Assembly: GCF_013340205.1 (NCBI RefSeq)
Contig: NZ_BJTG01000001.1
Coordinates: forward strand, 434,001-498,000
DNA from: Anaeromyxobacter diazotrophicus
GTDB lineage: Bacteria; Myxococcota; Myxococcia; Myxococcales; Anaeromyxobacteraceae
Direction: 5' to 3'
DNA: 64,000 bases
The translations under genes and the position numbers were made by a program. Shown piece after piece: positions 12,958 to 28,964 of the stretch. The number at the start of each line of letters is the position of its first letter. The first letter of the stretch is position 1. The notes below the pieces were generated by a model that searched no databases, had not been told where the DNA came from, and saw only the letters and a program-made list of their open reading frames with translations.

Positions 12958-13941
12958 TCAGCCGAACAGCCGGAGCACGGGGAAGGCCCGCGCCAGGAGG
13001 CCCGCCAGCCAGAGCCACTCCAGCGCGCCGGCGACGAGGAAGGGGCCGAACGGGACCGCGTGCTTCGGCGGCACCCAGTCCTGCTCGCTCGCGGGCGCGG
13101 CGCCCGCGCCGGCCTGCTCCTGCTCCTGCTCCTGCGCAGCGGGCGCGGCGTCGGCCGTGGGCTCGCCGGGCGCTTCGCCGCCGTCGCCGGGCAGGAGCGG
13201 TGGCGGCGGCGGGAGCGGGCCTGGGAGCGGCGCGGCGGGCCCCGGCTCTCCCTTGCCCATCGCGAGGAGCGCGAGCCCCACCACGGACCCCTGGACCGAC
13301 GCCAGGAGCACCACCGGCAGGAGCGGCAGCGGGCCGAACCAGGCGCCCAGCCCCGCGAGCAGCCACACGTCGCCGAACCCCAGCGCCTCCTTCTTCAGGA
13401 GCCGCTCGCCGAGCCAGCCGAGGAGCGCGAAGGCCGCGAACCCGAGCCCCGCCCCGTAGAGCGCGTGGCGCAGGGTGGTGGCCGGCGTGATCCCGAGCGG
13501 CGCCACCAGGATCCCGAAGGCGAGGACCGCCCAGGTGAGGACGTTCGGGAGGAGCCAGGTGTCGACGTCGATGAACGCGAGGGCGAGGAGCGCCGCGACG
13601 AACGCGAGCTCGACCGCCGCCGCGCCGGACAGCCCGTGCCGCGCGTAGATCACCAGCGCCGCCGCCGCCCCCAGCGCCTCGACCGCCGGGTAGCGCGCGG
13701 AGATCCGCGCGCCGCAGGCGCGGCAGCGCGCCCGCAGGGCGAGCCAGGAGACGATGGGCAGGTTGTCGTACCAGCGGATCGGCGTGCGGCAGCGCGGGCA
13801 GCGCGAGCCCGGGTAGACGATCGACTCCCCCGCCGGCACGCGCGCGATGACGACGTTGAGGAAGCTGCCCACGACGGCGCCCAGGAGCGCCACCCAGACC
13901 GCCACGAGCGCGCCGAGCGCTGGGCCGAGCTCCGGGGTCAC
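12958..13941 (-). CDS. pilD: Type IV prepilin peptidase / N-methyltransferase
   Basis: A 327-residue membrane aspartyl protease that cleaves the leader of PilA and minor pilins and methylates the new N-terminus. It has the cytoplasmic zinc-binding cysteines (CPRC and CRAC, about residues 48-75) and both catalytic aspartates, in [11 protein letters not shown] and in [11 protein letters not shown]. After the second Asp, a proline-rich low-complexity insert (about 230-265) contains a QEQEQEQ run before the final helix; typical PilD proteins of about 290 residues lack this. The GTG start overlaps the stop of pilH. Its substrates PilA, FimT, PilV and PilW are encoded nearby on the other strand. 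Confidence 0.93.
13114..13136 (-). repeat. CTGCTC hexamer repeat inside pilD
   Basis: Almost four copies of CTGCTC in the plus-strand reading encode the alternating Gln-Glu run in the PilD insert. Such a tract could change length by slippage in steps of two residues without breaking the frame. Confidence 0.6.
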
Positions 13942-14903
13942 GGCGCCGCGAGCCGCCGCGGCGTCGCTTCGGGGCGCGCTTCGCCCTCCTGCAGGCGCCG
14001 CATGAAGAAGTCCTCGAGCGTCTCGCGGTGGGGCGTGAGCGCGACGAGCCGCCCGCCGGCGGCGAGCACCGCGCGGACGGCCCCGTCCGCGCTCGCCTCG
14101 TCGTCGAAGGCGACGCTGACGCGTTCACCCTCCTCCGCCAGCACGCGCCCGCGGGCGAGGGCGCCCCGCGCGCCCTCCGGCACCATCGCCGAGAGCTCGA
14201 CCGTCTTGACGCGCGGCGAGAGCAGCTCGCCCAGCCGGCCCACGTCCCGGAGCTGGCCGCGCATGATGATGCCCACGCGATCGCAGAGGCTCTCCACGTC
14301 GGGCAGGATGTGGGTCGAGAAGAAGACGGTCTTGCCGCGCCGCTTGAGCTCCAGGATGAGGTCCCGGACCTCCTTGCGGCCGATCGGGTCGAGCCCGCTC
14401 ATCGGCTCGTCCAGGATGACGAAGGCAGGGTCGGCCACCAGGGCCTGCGCGATGCCGAGGCGCTGCTGCATGCCCTTCGAGTACTTGCGGATCTGCCGGT
14501 CGGCGGCCGGGGTGAGGCCGACCAGCTCGAGCAGCTCGTCGCACCGCCGCTTCGCGTCCGCCCCGGGCACCCGCGCCAGCCGGGCGAAGAACCGGAGGGC
14601 CTCGCGGCCGGTCAGGAACTCGTAGTAGGCAGGGTTCTCGGGGAGGTAGCCGATGCGCGCCTTGGAGGCCGTCGACGGGATGGGCGCGTCGAAGATGAAC
14701 GCGCGGCCGCCGCTGGGGAAGATGAGCCCCATGAGCATCTTGATGGTGGTCGTCTTGCCGGCGCCGTTCGGGCCGACGAAGCCGAAGATCTCGCCCTCCT
14801 GCACCGAGAGCGTCAGATCGCGCACGGCCTGTACCCGCCGCCGCCGGAAGCCCACCTCGAAGGTCTTGGCGAGGCCCTCCGTCCTCAGGATCATCGGGCG
14901 CAT
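13938..14903 (-). CDS. pilH: ABC transporter ATP-binding protein of the pilus locus (PilH-like)
   Basis: A 321-residue ABC ATPase: Walker [11 protein letters not shown]-loop-region [15 protein letters not shown], signature [10 protein letters not shown] (a degenerate LSGGQ), Walker [14 protein letters not shown] and switch His in STHIL. A C-terminal extension follows (about 225-321), as in DrrA/NatA-type exporters. In M. xanthus, PilG, PilH and PilI lie beside pilA and pilD, with PilH the ATPase and PilI its permease. Here the matching permease is at 16735 and the PilG-like protein at 15830. The assignment rests on this order, as the ATPase alone is generic. The upstream in-frame region before ATG 14903 overlaps the pilA control region and is probably untranslated; ATG 14894 is an alternative. 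Confidence 0.8.
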
Positions 14904-14942: not shown

Positions 14943-14959
14943 CTGACGAAAATCGTCAG
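14943..14959. promoter_or_regulatory. 17-bp inverted repeat, distal site upstream of pilA
   Basis: CTGACGAAAATCGTCAG is a perfect 7-bp inverted repeat around AAA. Its centre lies about 119 bases before the predicted pilA transcription start, a usual position for an enhancer-binding protein site. A similar 17-mer begins 30 bases further on, about three helical turns away on the same face. Confidence 0.6.
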
Positions 14960-14972
14960 TGCTCGCCACCCG

Positions 14973-14989
14973 CCGACGGATTTCGTCAG
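14973..14989. promoter_or_regulatory. 17-bp inverted repeat, proximal site upstream of pilA
   Basis: CCGACGGATTTCGTCAG matches the distal site at 13 of 17 positions and keeps the TCGTCAG arm intact. It lies about 89 bases before the predicted start. PilR, encoded in this window, is the natural candidate to bind the pair. Confidence 0.55.
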
Positions 14990-15043
14990 GGGCATGCGGA
15001 TGTCCGACACGGGGGGATCCGCGAGCTTGCGAGCAAGCGCCGC

Positions 15044-15059
15044 TGGCACCGCTCGTGCT
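15044..15059 (+). promoter_or_regulatory. Sigma-54 (RpoN) promoter of pilA
   Basis: TGGCACCGCTCGTGCT matches the -24/-12 consensus: the GG (15045-15046) and GC (15057-15058) doublets have the obligatory spacing, and the -24 half TGGCAC is perfect. Transcription would start near 15070, giving a leader of about 72 bases before the pilA ATG. pilA genes of Myxococcus, Geobacter and Pseudomonas use sigma-54 with PilR. Confidence 0.75.
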
Positions 15060-15141: not shown

Positions 15142-15756
15142 ATGAAGAAGACGTCCAAGGGCTTCACCCTCATCGAGCTCATGATCGTCGTGGCCATCAT
15201 CGGCATCCTGGCCGCCATCGCGATCCCGAACTTCCTCCGCTACCAGCTCCGCTCGAAGGCGAGCGAGCGCAAGACGAACCTGGAGGCCATCTTCAAGTCG
15301 GAGGAGGCCCTCCGCCAGAGCGAGCGCCAGGCGACGTCCGGCGTCTCCGGCGTCTACTACGGCTTCGCCCAGGACCTGCCCACGGGCGGCACGCTCGGCA
15401 CGGCGAAGCTCGCGTGGGCCGACACGGACCTCGCCGAGGCGCAGAAGATCGACTGGATCGTGCAGGGCTCGACCTACGCCCGCTACAACGCCAAGGCCAA
15501 CACCAACGGCGTCGCGCTCTCGATCTGCGCCTGGAGCGACATCGACGGCGACACCAAGATCGCGGCCGACGCGGTCTACAACCCCCAGATCGGGCCGGAC
15601 GGCAAGATCACGACCAACGGCGTGCCCCCGGCGGCGCCCTGCACGGCGGCCCCCGACGTCACCCTCCACGCGCTGGCGACCTCGGACGCCGCGGGCGCGG
15701 CTCCGGCCGACCCGATGGGCCAGGTCATCCCGCTCTCGGCCGACAGCGTCTTCTAG
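15142..15756 (+). CDS. pilA: Major type IV pilin
   Basis: A 204-residue prepilin with a short leader MKKTSKG, cut by PilD after Gly7 to leave N-terminal Phe with Glu at mature position 5. The conserved hydrophobic alpha-1 runs through [24 protein letters not shown]. The globular part has two cysteines that could form the C-terminal disulfide loop. The ATG at 15142 is set by a good GGAGG five bases upstream; the frame extends further upstream but covers the promoter. It contains no N-X-S/T glycosylation site. It has its own sigma-54 promoter and a strong hairpin right after it, typical of an abundant monocistronic message with some read-through to pilG and pilI. Confidence 0.96.
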
Positions 15757-25953: not shown

Positions 25954-25981
25954 CGGCGGGGGGCCCTACGGGCCCCCGCCG
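25954..25981. terminator. Bidirectional hairpin between pilY1 and pilR
   Basis: CGGCGGGGGGCCC (25954-25966) and GGGCCCCCGCCG (25970-25981) pair with one bulged G around a TAC loop, in the gap between the convergent genes and overlapping the pilR stop. There is no T-run, so it may act with Rho or as a processing stop. Confidence 0.5.
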
Positions 25982-27348
25982 ATGCCGAACTTGGCCAGGC
26001 GGTAGCGCAGCGACCGGAAGGTCAGGCTGAGGAGCCGGGCCGCCTCGGTCTTCACGCCCCCGGTGCGCCCGAGCGCCTCCTCCAGGATGGCGCGCTCGAT
26101 GGCGTCGAGGTGCGCCTGGAGATCGAGCCCCTCGTCGGGCAGCGCCGCCGCGCCCGCCGCCGCCGGCAGCGGCGCCGCGCCGCGGACGGCCGGCGGCAGC
26201 ACCGCGGGCTCGATCACCCCGCCGTCGCACAGCGTGACCGCGCGCTCCAGCACGTTGGCGAGCTCGCGCACGTTGCCGGGATAGGCGTAGGCGAGGAGCA
26301 GCCGCTGCGCCTCCGGGGAGACCGACGGCCGCGGCCGCCCCAGCTCGCCGGCGAAGCGGTCGAGGAAGTGGTCGAGGAAGAGCGGCAGGTCCTCGCGCCG
26401 CTCGCGCAAGGGCGGCATCTTCAGCTGGATGACGTTCAGCCGGTAGAAGAGGTCCTCCCGGAACCGGCCCGCCTTCACCTCCTCGGCCAGCTCGCGGTTG
26501 GTGGCGGCGATGATGCGGGCCGCCACCGCCAGGTCGGCGCTGCCGCCCACCCGCCGGATCTTCCGCTCCTGCAGCGCCCGCAGGAGCCGCACCTGGAGGA
26601 CGGGCGGCAGCTCGCCCACCTCGTCGAGGAAGAGCGTCCCCGAGCCCGCCACCTCGAAGAGCCCCTGCTTCTGCTCGGACGCGCCGGTGAAGCTCCCCTT
26701 CTCGTGGCCGAACAGCTCGCTCTCGATGAGGCCCTCGGGGATGGCGCCGCAGTTGATGGCGACGAACGGCTGGTCGCGGCGCGGGCCCTTGTCGTGGATG
26801 GCGCGCGCCACCACCTCCTTGCCGGTGCCGCTCTCGCCGGTGACGAGGACGGTGGTGCGGGTGGGCGCCACCTTCTCGACCAGCTCCCGCACCTCCTGGA
26901 TGAGGGGCGAGGCGCCCAGGATCGCCTCGCCGCCCGGCCGGTGCTCCCCGACCCGGTGGCGCAGGGCGCGGTTCTCCGCCACGAGCGCCCGGTGCTCGAG
27001 CGCCTTCTCCACCACCAGCTTCAGCTCCTCGACCTTGAACGGCTTCAGGACGTAGTCGTACGCGCCCGCCTTCATGGCCTGGATGGCGGTCTCGGTGGTG
27101 GCGAAGGCGGTCACCACCACCACCTCGGTGGTGGGGGAGGAGGCCTTCACCGCCTTGAGGACGTCGAGGCCCGAGCCGCGGCCGAGGCGCAGGTCGGTGA
27201 TGACGAGGTCGAACGCCGCGCCCGCCAGCCGCGCCAGCGCGCCGGCGGCGTCGCCCGCCGCGGTCACCTCGTGCCCCCCCGTGCCGAGGAGGATCTCGAG
27301 CAGCTCCCGCATCGACTGCTCGTCGTCCACGACCAGGATGGAGGCCAT
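25966..27348 (-). CDS. pilR: Sigma-54-dependent response regulator PilR
   Basis: A 460-residue NtrC-type regulator. The receiver (1-120) has Asp8/Asp9, phosphoacceptor Asp52 and KPF. The AAA+ domain (about 143-375) has Walker A GESGTGKE, the sigma-54 contact loop as GSFTGA instead of GAFTGA, Walker B GTLFLDEVGEL, and YPGNVREL. The Fis-type helix-turn-helix is at the end (EAARLLSLTFRSLRYRLAKFG). It lies directly after pilS on the minus strand. PilR homologues activate pilA from sigma-54 promoters, and one is present here. The G-S-F-T-G-A loop occurs in other PilR proteins. The start ATG 27348 is nine bases after the pilS stop. Confidence 0.93.
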   Translation of the reverse strand: MASILVVDDEQSMRELLEILLGTGGHEVTAAGDAAGALARLAGAAFDLVITDLRLGRGSGLDVLKAVKASSPTTEVVVVTAFATTETAIQAMKAGAYDYVLKPFKVEELKLVVEKALEHRALVAENRALRHRVGEHRPGGEAILGASPLIQEVRELVEKVAPTRTTVLVTGESGTGKEVVARAIHDKGPRRDQPFVAINCGAIPEGLIESELFGHEKGSFTGASEQKQGLFEVAGSGTLFLDEVGELPPVLQVRLLRALQERKIRRVGGSADLAVAARIIAATNRELAEEVKAGRFREDLFYRLNVIQLKMPPLRERREDLPLFLDHFLDRFAGELGRPRPSVSPEAQRLLLAYAYPGNVRELANVLERAVTLCDGGVIEPAVLPPAVRGAAPLPAAAGAAALPDEGLDLQAHLDAIERAILEEALGRTGGVKTEAARLLSLTFRSLRYRLAKFGIGGGP

Positions 27349-27356
27349 GCGCGATC

Positions 27357-28964
27357 CTACCCCGCCGCGGGCCGGGCCGCCGCCGGCAGGCGCACCGTGA
27401 AGCGGGTCCCCTGCCCCGGGACCGAGTCCACCCCGACCGCGCCGCCGTGGGCGTCCACGATGCGCTGCACGGTCGCGAGCCCGAGGCCGGTGCCGCCCTC
27501 GCGCGTCGTGAAGAACGGGGTGAAGAGGTGCGGCAGATCGGCGGCGGAGATGCCGGGCCCGTCGTCCTCCACCTCCAGCCGGGCGCGCTCCCCCTCGGCA
27601 GCGCAGCGCACGCGGACCGTCCCGCCGCCCTCGCGCTGCCCCGCCGCGTGGGCGGCGTTCGCGAGCAGGTTCCACAGCACCTGCCGGAGCTGGCCGGCGT
27701 CGCAGGAGGCGGTGGCGGGCTCGAGCTCCCGCTCGAGCCGTACCCGCCCGGCGGCGGGGTCGTGCGCGAAGACCTCCAGCGTCTCGGCCACCGCGTGCGC
27801 GAGATCGACCGGCTCGCGGCGCGGCGGGGAGGGCCGCGAGAAGGCGAGGAACGCGGCCACCAGCTGCTCCAGCCGCGCCGCCTCGCGCAGCACGATGTCC
27901 ATCAGCCGCGCGTCGCCCGAGGTGAGGCCGGACGAGGCCCGGAGGAGCTCGACCGAGCCCGCCATCGAGGCGAGCGGGTTGCGAAGCTCGTGCGCCAGCC
28001 CCGCGGCGACGCGGCCCAGGTCGGCCAGCCGCTCGCTGCGCTGCATCTCGTCCTGCAGCTGGCGGAGCGCGGTGAGGTCCTGGAAGATGACGGCGCGCCC
28101 GATCTGCTCCCCCCCGCGCGCCAGCAGGGGGAAGGCCGTGTACCCCAGCCAGAGCCGCTCACCGCGGGCGTTCACGAGCTCGCTCTCGCCTCGCTCCACC
28201 CCCGGCTGGAAGCCGCCGAACCAGCGGGCGGCGGGCGTGCCGCGCACGGCGGCGGCCTCGACGCCGGTGATCTGCTCCCCGGCCCGGTTGAGGAAGGTGA
28301 TGCGGCCCTCCACGTCGATGGTGACGAGCCCGCTCGCCACCGACTGCACGATCGACTCGTGCAGCGCGGTGATGGCCGCCAGGTCCACCTCGCGCGCCTC
28401 CAGCCGCTCGCCGGTCCGGCGGAGCTGCTCGGCGAGGTAGCTCGCCAGGGCCGCCGTCGCCGCGAAGGCGAACAGGTGGACGAACACCGTCGGCGCGCTC
28501 GGGCGGACCGCGGGCCCGACCGTGACGAGCGGGAGGTAGATGGAGATGGAGAGCGCGGCCGCCACCACCGCGCCGCGGCGGAAGAGCAGGATGCTCCCGT
28601 TCACGATGCCGAACAGGAACATGAAGACGAACACGCTCTCCGAGAAGCCGGTCAGCCGGACCACCGCCGCCGCGATGACGACGTCGAGCGCCACCTGCCC
28701 GTAGGCGAGCGCGTGCAGCGCCGCGCGCCAGCGGAGCCCGAGGGCGAGGCCGAGCGAGGCGACGTAGGTGAAGAGGACCAGCCGGAACAGCGACCCCGCC
28801 ACCTCGCCGATGAACCCGGGCGTGGTCCAGGCGGCCGCCACGGTGCCGCCCAGCAGCACCGTCACCGTCACCAGCCGGAAGAGGGTGAGCCAGACGAGCT
28901 TCCGGAACAGCGGGTCCCGGCCGGCGGCCGGCGCCGCGCCGGGCAGCTCGACGGGCGCGGCCAC
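27357..28964 (-). CDS. pilS: Sensor histidine kinase PilS
   Basis: A 535-residue kinase with about six N-terminal membrane helices (residues 25-175) and almost no extracytoplasmic loops. A PAS domain (about 195-300, SGLVTIDVEGRITFLNRAGEQITG) and the H-box GLAHELRNPLASM (His325) follow, then an ATPase domain ending DDGPGISAADLPHLFTPFFTT and GTGLGLAT. In other species PilS senses pilin in the inner membrane through its helices and phosphorylates PilR. The GTG at 28964 lies two bases after the pilC stop, so motor and sensor genes are co-transcribed. Confidence 0.92.
   Translation of the reverse strand: MAAPVELPGAAPAAGRDPLFRKLVWLTLFRLVTVTVLLGGTVAAAWTTPGFIGEVAGSLFRLVLFTYVASLGLALGLRWRAALHALAYGQVALDVVIAAAVVRLTGFSESVFVFMFLFGIVNGSILLFRRGAVVAAALSISIYLPLVTVGPAVRPSAPTVFVHLFAFAATAALASYLAEQLRRTGERLEAREVDLAAITALHESIVQSVASGLVTIDVEGRITFLNRAGEQITGVEAAAVRGTPAARWFGGFQPGVERGESELVNARGERLWLGYTAFPLLARGGEQIGRAVIFQDLTALRQLQDEMQRSERLADLGRVAAGLAHELRNPLASMAGSVELLRASSGLTSGDARLMDIVLREAARLEQLVAAFLAFSRPSPPRREPVDLAHAVAETLEVFAHDPAAGRVRLERELEPATASCDAGQLRQVLWNLLANAAHAAGQREGGGTVRVRCAAEGERARLEVEDDGPGISAADLPHLFTPFFTTREGGTGLGLATVQRIVDAHGGAVGVDSVPGQGTRFTVRLPAAARPAAG

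Follow-up and report, generated by a model that had tools for sequence, protein, structure and literature searches.

Two palindromic sites upstream of a sigma-54-dependent pilA gene in Anaeromyxobacter diazotrophicus are best read as a putative PilR/sigma-54 enhancer of the ordinary type, which is here newly well defined. The kind of switch is known; what is new is the precise sequence and the helix-turn spacing. We consider it highly likely that the palindromes are upstream activator sites for dimers of the NtrC-type regulator PilR, which would drive sigma-54 transcription of pilA. The sites lie in a stretch of 64,000 nucleotides (hereafter, the window), in which the relevant features are as follows.

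13938..14894, minus strand: divergent ABC-transporter ATPase gene (Pfam ABC_tran), pilH-like by position
14943..14959, no strand assigned: site 1, putative distal PilR box, CTGACGAAAATCGTCAG, a perfect 7+3+7 palindrome centred at about -119
14973..14989, no strand assigned: site 2, putative proximal PilR box, CCGACGGATTTCGTCAG, an imperfect palindrome centred at about -89
15044..15059, plus strand: sigma-54 (-24/-12) promoter, TGGCACCGCTCGTGCT, kept across the family
15142..15756, plus strand: pilA-type major pilin gene, 204 amino acids (Pfam N_methyl, 7.3e-10)
25966..27348, minus strand: pilR, the proposed binder (Pfam Response_reg, Sigma54_activat and HTH_8)
27357..28949, minus strand: pilS-type sensor kinase gene, putative start (Pfam HisKA, HATPase_c and PAS)

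The promoter element TGGCACCGCTCGTGCT contains the GG and GC dinucleotides with the correct 10 bases between them and was graded as a good sigma-54 promoter, in agreement with the sequence-only reading from which this study started; the transcription start is predicted at approximately 15070. The coordinates, the sequences, the start-to-start distance of exactly 30 bp and the centres given in that reading were all correct on recheck, with the centres computed by setting the first T of TGGCACCGCTCGTGCT at -26. Its description of the inverted repeats as matching holds for site 1, which is perfect, but is somewhat generous for the pair because site 2 pairs at only five of seven positions. As in an NtrC-type enhancer, the inverted repeats lie within the range of 70-150 bp ahead of a -24/-12 promoter, and the two sites, 30 bp apart here, occupy one face of the helix. 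The top NCBIfam match of the downstream pilin gene is PilA_Myxo (8.5e-22, under its cut-off). A further perfect inverted repeat, GCTTGC-GA-GCAAGC, occurs at 15025-15038, immediately upstream of the -24 element; no repeat like it was seen by eye in the promoters of a few relatives.

Conservation was assessed in a family of 24 Myxococcota genomes, of which 21 gave a PilA match and 20 a readable pilA promoter. Site 1 is present in all 20 of these promoters, approximately 100 bp upstream of -24, as would be seen at a PilR-regulated promoter, and a second, weaker box, CTGCCG-N5-CGTCAG, follows 30-33 bp on in 13 of the 20 (0.005 expected per promoter). The sequence-only reading had named a lack of conservation of the repeats at orthologous pilA genes as its refutation, and this refutation therefore fails. 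Site 2 is weak and about one third of the family is without a second site, which counts against the PilR reading. The full TGACR-N5-YGTCA occurs in 19/20 promoters compared with 0.0003 in dinucleotide shuffles (Euler shuffles), and in an unguided count of all 5-mer dyads TGACG-N5-CGTCA ranks first (17/20). In 17 promoters the box and the sigma-54 element are 98-103 bp apart; in the other three the distance is longer by one turn (110-113 bp). A conservation profile anchored on -24 was dropped because the spacing differs by a few bases and site 1 is blurred, and a site-anchored count was used instead. In this count, which is partly circular in that the core was picked by score, the bases T, G, A and C and their facing G, C and A do not vary, and the spacer is A-rich. 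The flanking bases of site 1, which like the dyad count are free of this circularity, are also conserved, and the family consensus is approximately G(G/C)TGACGAAAAACGTCA(G/C)C.

The palindrome followed by a sigma-54 element at 70-100 bp was also sought genome-wide. Sixteen of the 24 family genomes gave one match each, all 16 of them at pilA, and the reversed control pattern gave no match in the family genomes. Therefore, the strict motif is nearly a pilA-only signal in the Anaeromyxobacter-type family. So narrow a distribution points to a PilR regulon of very small size in this family, unlike the broad regulons proposed elsewhere.

The same box, more often in the form GTGACAAAAATTGTCAC, is carried by pilA promoters of approximately two dozen other Myxococcota families, and 34 of the 44 Myxococcota promoters outside the family score at least 9/10 (0.016 expected). 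Where relatives have two boxes, their spacing is 20-23, 30-33 or 41 bp. Relative to the -24 element, the boxes are centred at approximately -40, -49, -60, -70, -82, -93, -103 and -114, and the distances outside the family have a period of about 10.75 bp (p 5e-5 relative to uniform placement, after correction for having chosen the period, and optimistic given the relatedness within families). Conservation in the family and in Myxococcota thus supports the earlier claim of paired activator sites, three helical turns apart, at a sigma-54 pilA promoter. Spacing quantised by helix turns across families is natural evidence for a face-of-helix constraint in sigma-54 activation.

Several arrangements in these relatives differ in detail. 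Some Myxococcaceae pilA promoters are degenerate, and the Myxococcaceae-like family f6 (L081, L082, L084 and L089) has a one-sided variant, TGACAAAAATTGGCA, with a second box 20-22 bp upstream. In L054, L059, L071, L080 and other Myxococcota, two or three tandem pilin genes have separate promoters, and some copies are without the box or the sigma-54 element. In family f7, pilA follows directly on a pilR gene of the same orientation, whose stop codon the box overlaps; at L067 of this family (genome G155), the stop codon TGA is the start of TGACA, and the end of the coding sequence and the box share bases.

A sigma-54 promoter requires an NtrC-type activator, and the window encodes one beside a PilS-type kinase. 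The PilR product has a receiver, a sigma-54 AAA+ domain with a GSFTGA loop and a Fis-type HTH, and its gene adjoins the pilS-type gene beside pilC, pilT and pilB, which bears out the earlier statement that PilR is encoded in the window. The assignment is based on the domains, the linkage to pilS and the place in the pilB-pilT-pilC cluster; an NCBIfam search with the pilR product gave no PilR-named match among the matches listed, and the 6TM_PilS match of the kinase is under its cut-off. The PilR recognition helix, TFRSLRYRL, is nearly invariant across the phylum, which fits the near-invariant half-site. In M. xanthus, PilR is needed for pilA expression, and in P. aeruginosa it binds upstream of pilA (PMC3546991). 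In Geobacter sulfurreducens, an RpoN-dependent pilA promoter is under PilR regulation (PMC2725144), and this combination of PilR and RpoN at pilA would be the same as in the window, where the role of PilR is inferred. PilR is the likeliest binder of both palindromes, and the palindrome is very probably its landing site.

In the mechanism that we propose, the Fis-type HTH pair of each PilR dimer would read TGAC(G/A) and (C/T)GTCA across the A-rich 5-bp spacer. Two dimers, three turns apart on the same face of the helix, would give rise to an AAA+ oligomer, which would loop over approximately 90 bp, contact the sigma-54 RNA polymerase at -24/-12 and remodel it by ATP hydrolysis. Control would lie with PilS, whose activation of PilR would switch pilA on. 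The residue that follows AA in the PilR HTH (L100-L149) is Arg or Lys in the Anaeromyxobacter-type family and Glu in Myxococcaceae, and it roughly tracks G/C versus A/T at the inner base of the half-site; it may be a determinant of specificity, although ancestry and GC content confound the correlation.

Palindromy by itself was rejected as evidence for these sites: 20 perfect 7+3+7 palindromes occur in the window in total, and a lone one is therefore uninformative. This abundance is what could be said for regarding sites 1 and 2 as chance palindromes of a GC-rich intergenic region, an explanation that conservation, position and pilA specificity across the family and the phylum refute and to which we assign practically no probability. 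The sites are taken as real because they are conserved, palindromy being insufficient. With up to three mismatches, matches to the 17-mer in the window are confined to sites 1 and 2 (three matches over both strands, compared with 0.01 expected from shuffles), and the whole 4.8-Mb genome holds three others, with 2-3 mismatches, all within long open reading frames. A loose pattern with two mismatches was uninformative genome-wide (4901 matches per strand). The palindromes could also serve the divergent ABC-transporter gene as an operator for a repressor or activator of its own, given that site 1 is about 50 bp upstream of the start of that gene. However, the sites keep a nearly constant distance from the sigma-54 element, whereas that from the divergent start varies from 34 to 70 bp (five cases), and the overlap of the box with the stop codon of a pilR gene itself upstream of pilA, as described above for family f7, argues against ownership by the divergent gene. 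We regard this explanation as largely refuted and very improbable, and the ABC-transporter gene is not the likely target of either site.

The main rival to PilR as binder is a second PilR-type protein or another NtrC-type activator, such as PilR2 or an NmpR-like regulator. Regulators of this type are numerous in myxobacteria, two pilR homologues of M. xanthus have both been reported as necessary for pilus assembly (PMC6060248), and the case for PilR itself is inferential. NmpR of M. xanthus, also NtrC-type, has the architecture of the window, with paired 5-N5-5 inverted repeats, GCGCA-N5-TGCGC, separated by about 14 bp and placed upstream of sigma-54 promoters (PMC11841059), compared with 15-bp cores 15 bp apart in the window. 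However, its half-site sequence and target genes differ, and the pilA promoter is not bound by NmpR (PMC11841059, PMC6211767). Moreover, of 15 family genomes searched, 14, the window genome among them, carry just one close PilR homologue, and PilR is the known activator of pilA in several phyla with the same box. Binding by another activator is thus unlikely, though less so than the two explanations above, and PilR remains the preferred reading.

In P. aeruginosa, the PilR region upstream of pilA is reportedly described in the 1994 work of Jin, Ishimoto and Lory in terms of tandem TGTC elements and not of a palindrome, and Krushkal in 2010 is said to have predicted PilR recognition sites in Geobacter sulfurreducens. 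PMC6058289 refers to both studies. The P. aeruginosa region and the window have in common a sigma-54 pilA promoter, an upstream PilR region and a GTC-containing half-site. They differ at the inner base of the half-site, which is C/G in the window (CGTC) and T/A in P. aeruginosa (TGTC), and in that the window has two tidy boxes 30 bp apart. The half-site is thus kin to the pseudomonad element, of which the window has the CGTC variant. Judged by its sequence, the TGTC repeat lies within TGTCA, a half-site of the same palindrome; the window family has mostly CGTCA, one base off. Among the matches listed, many Pseudomonas pilA promoters share the TGAC-N7-GTCA palindrome with the window, and TGACA-N5-TGTCA precedes their sigma-54 elements; the earlier claim that their sequence sets the sites apart from the TGTC repeats of pseudomonads is thus contradicted. 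A simple consensus replaces the loose repeats, and a concrete candidate PilR operator is offered for Anaeromyxobacter-type bacteria. A literature search, with most subscription papers outside its reach, found no paper that defines a PilR palindrome of this kind, and the text of the P. aeruginosa SELEX atlas contains no PilR motif.

A scan of all species genomes for a box, then a sigma-54 element, then a pilin start, with 31 distance positions permitted, returned at least 117 stretches. The matches listed include many Pseudomonas, Acinetobacter, numerous beta-proteobacteria, Methylophaga and Salinisphaera, as well as Acidobacteriota, Aminicenantes, Rokuibacteriota, Desulfurobacteriaceae and Archangium; among them, the palindrome before sigma-54 pilA promoters outside Myxococcota is usually TGACA-N5-TGTCA. 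In 80 of the at least 117 stretches, the positions bunch at -82, -92 and -70, and the intervening positions are nearly empty. Among the matches listed, 35 non-Pseudomonas loci give a periodicity p of 1e-4, and three turns pin the period poorly. It is probable, in our judgement, that one PilR box, GTGAC(A/G)-N5-(T/C)GTCAC, is an ancient sigma-54 pilA operator in at least Pseudomonadota, Myxococcota, Acidobacteriota, Aminicenantes, Rokuibacteriota and Desulfurobacteriaceae, with a distance to the promoter that evolves in steps of full helical turns (ranging upstream of -24 from about 40 to about 114 bp).

Within the genus of P. aeruginosa and P. otitidis, the full palindrome occurs in 4 of 18 pilA promoters, and the box is therefore general, not universal. 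Eleven of the 18 reach 8/10, several of them at other distances, and the exact composite pattern is found in one, the rest showing degenerate boxes or different spacings. In a Desulfurobacteriaceae metagenome-assembled genome, of a phylum distant from Myxococcota, the boxes TGACAAGCTGCGTCA and TGACAAAATTTGTCA lie 22 bp apart upstream of a sigma-54 pilin promoter (L185, G203:C38:25735-25838).
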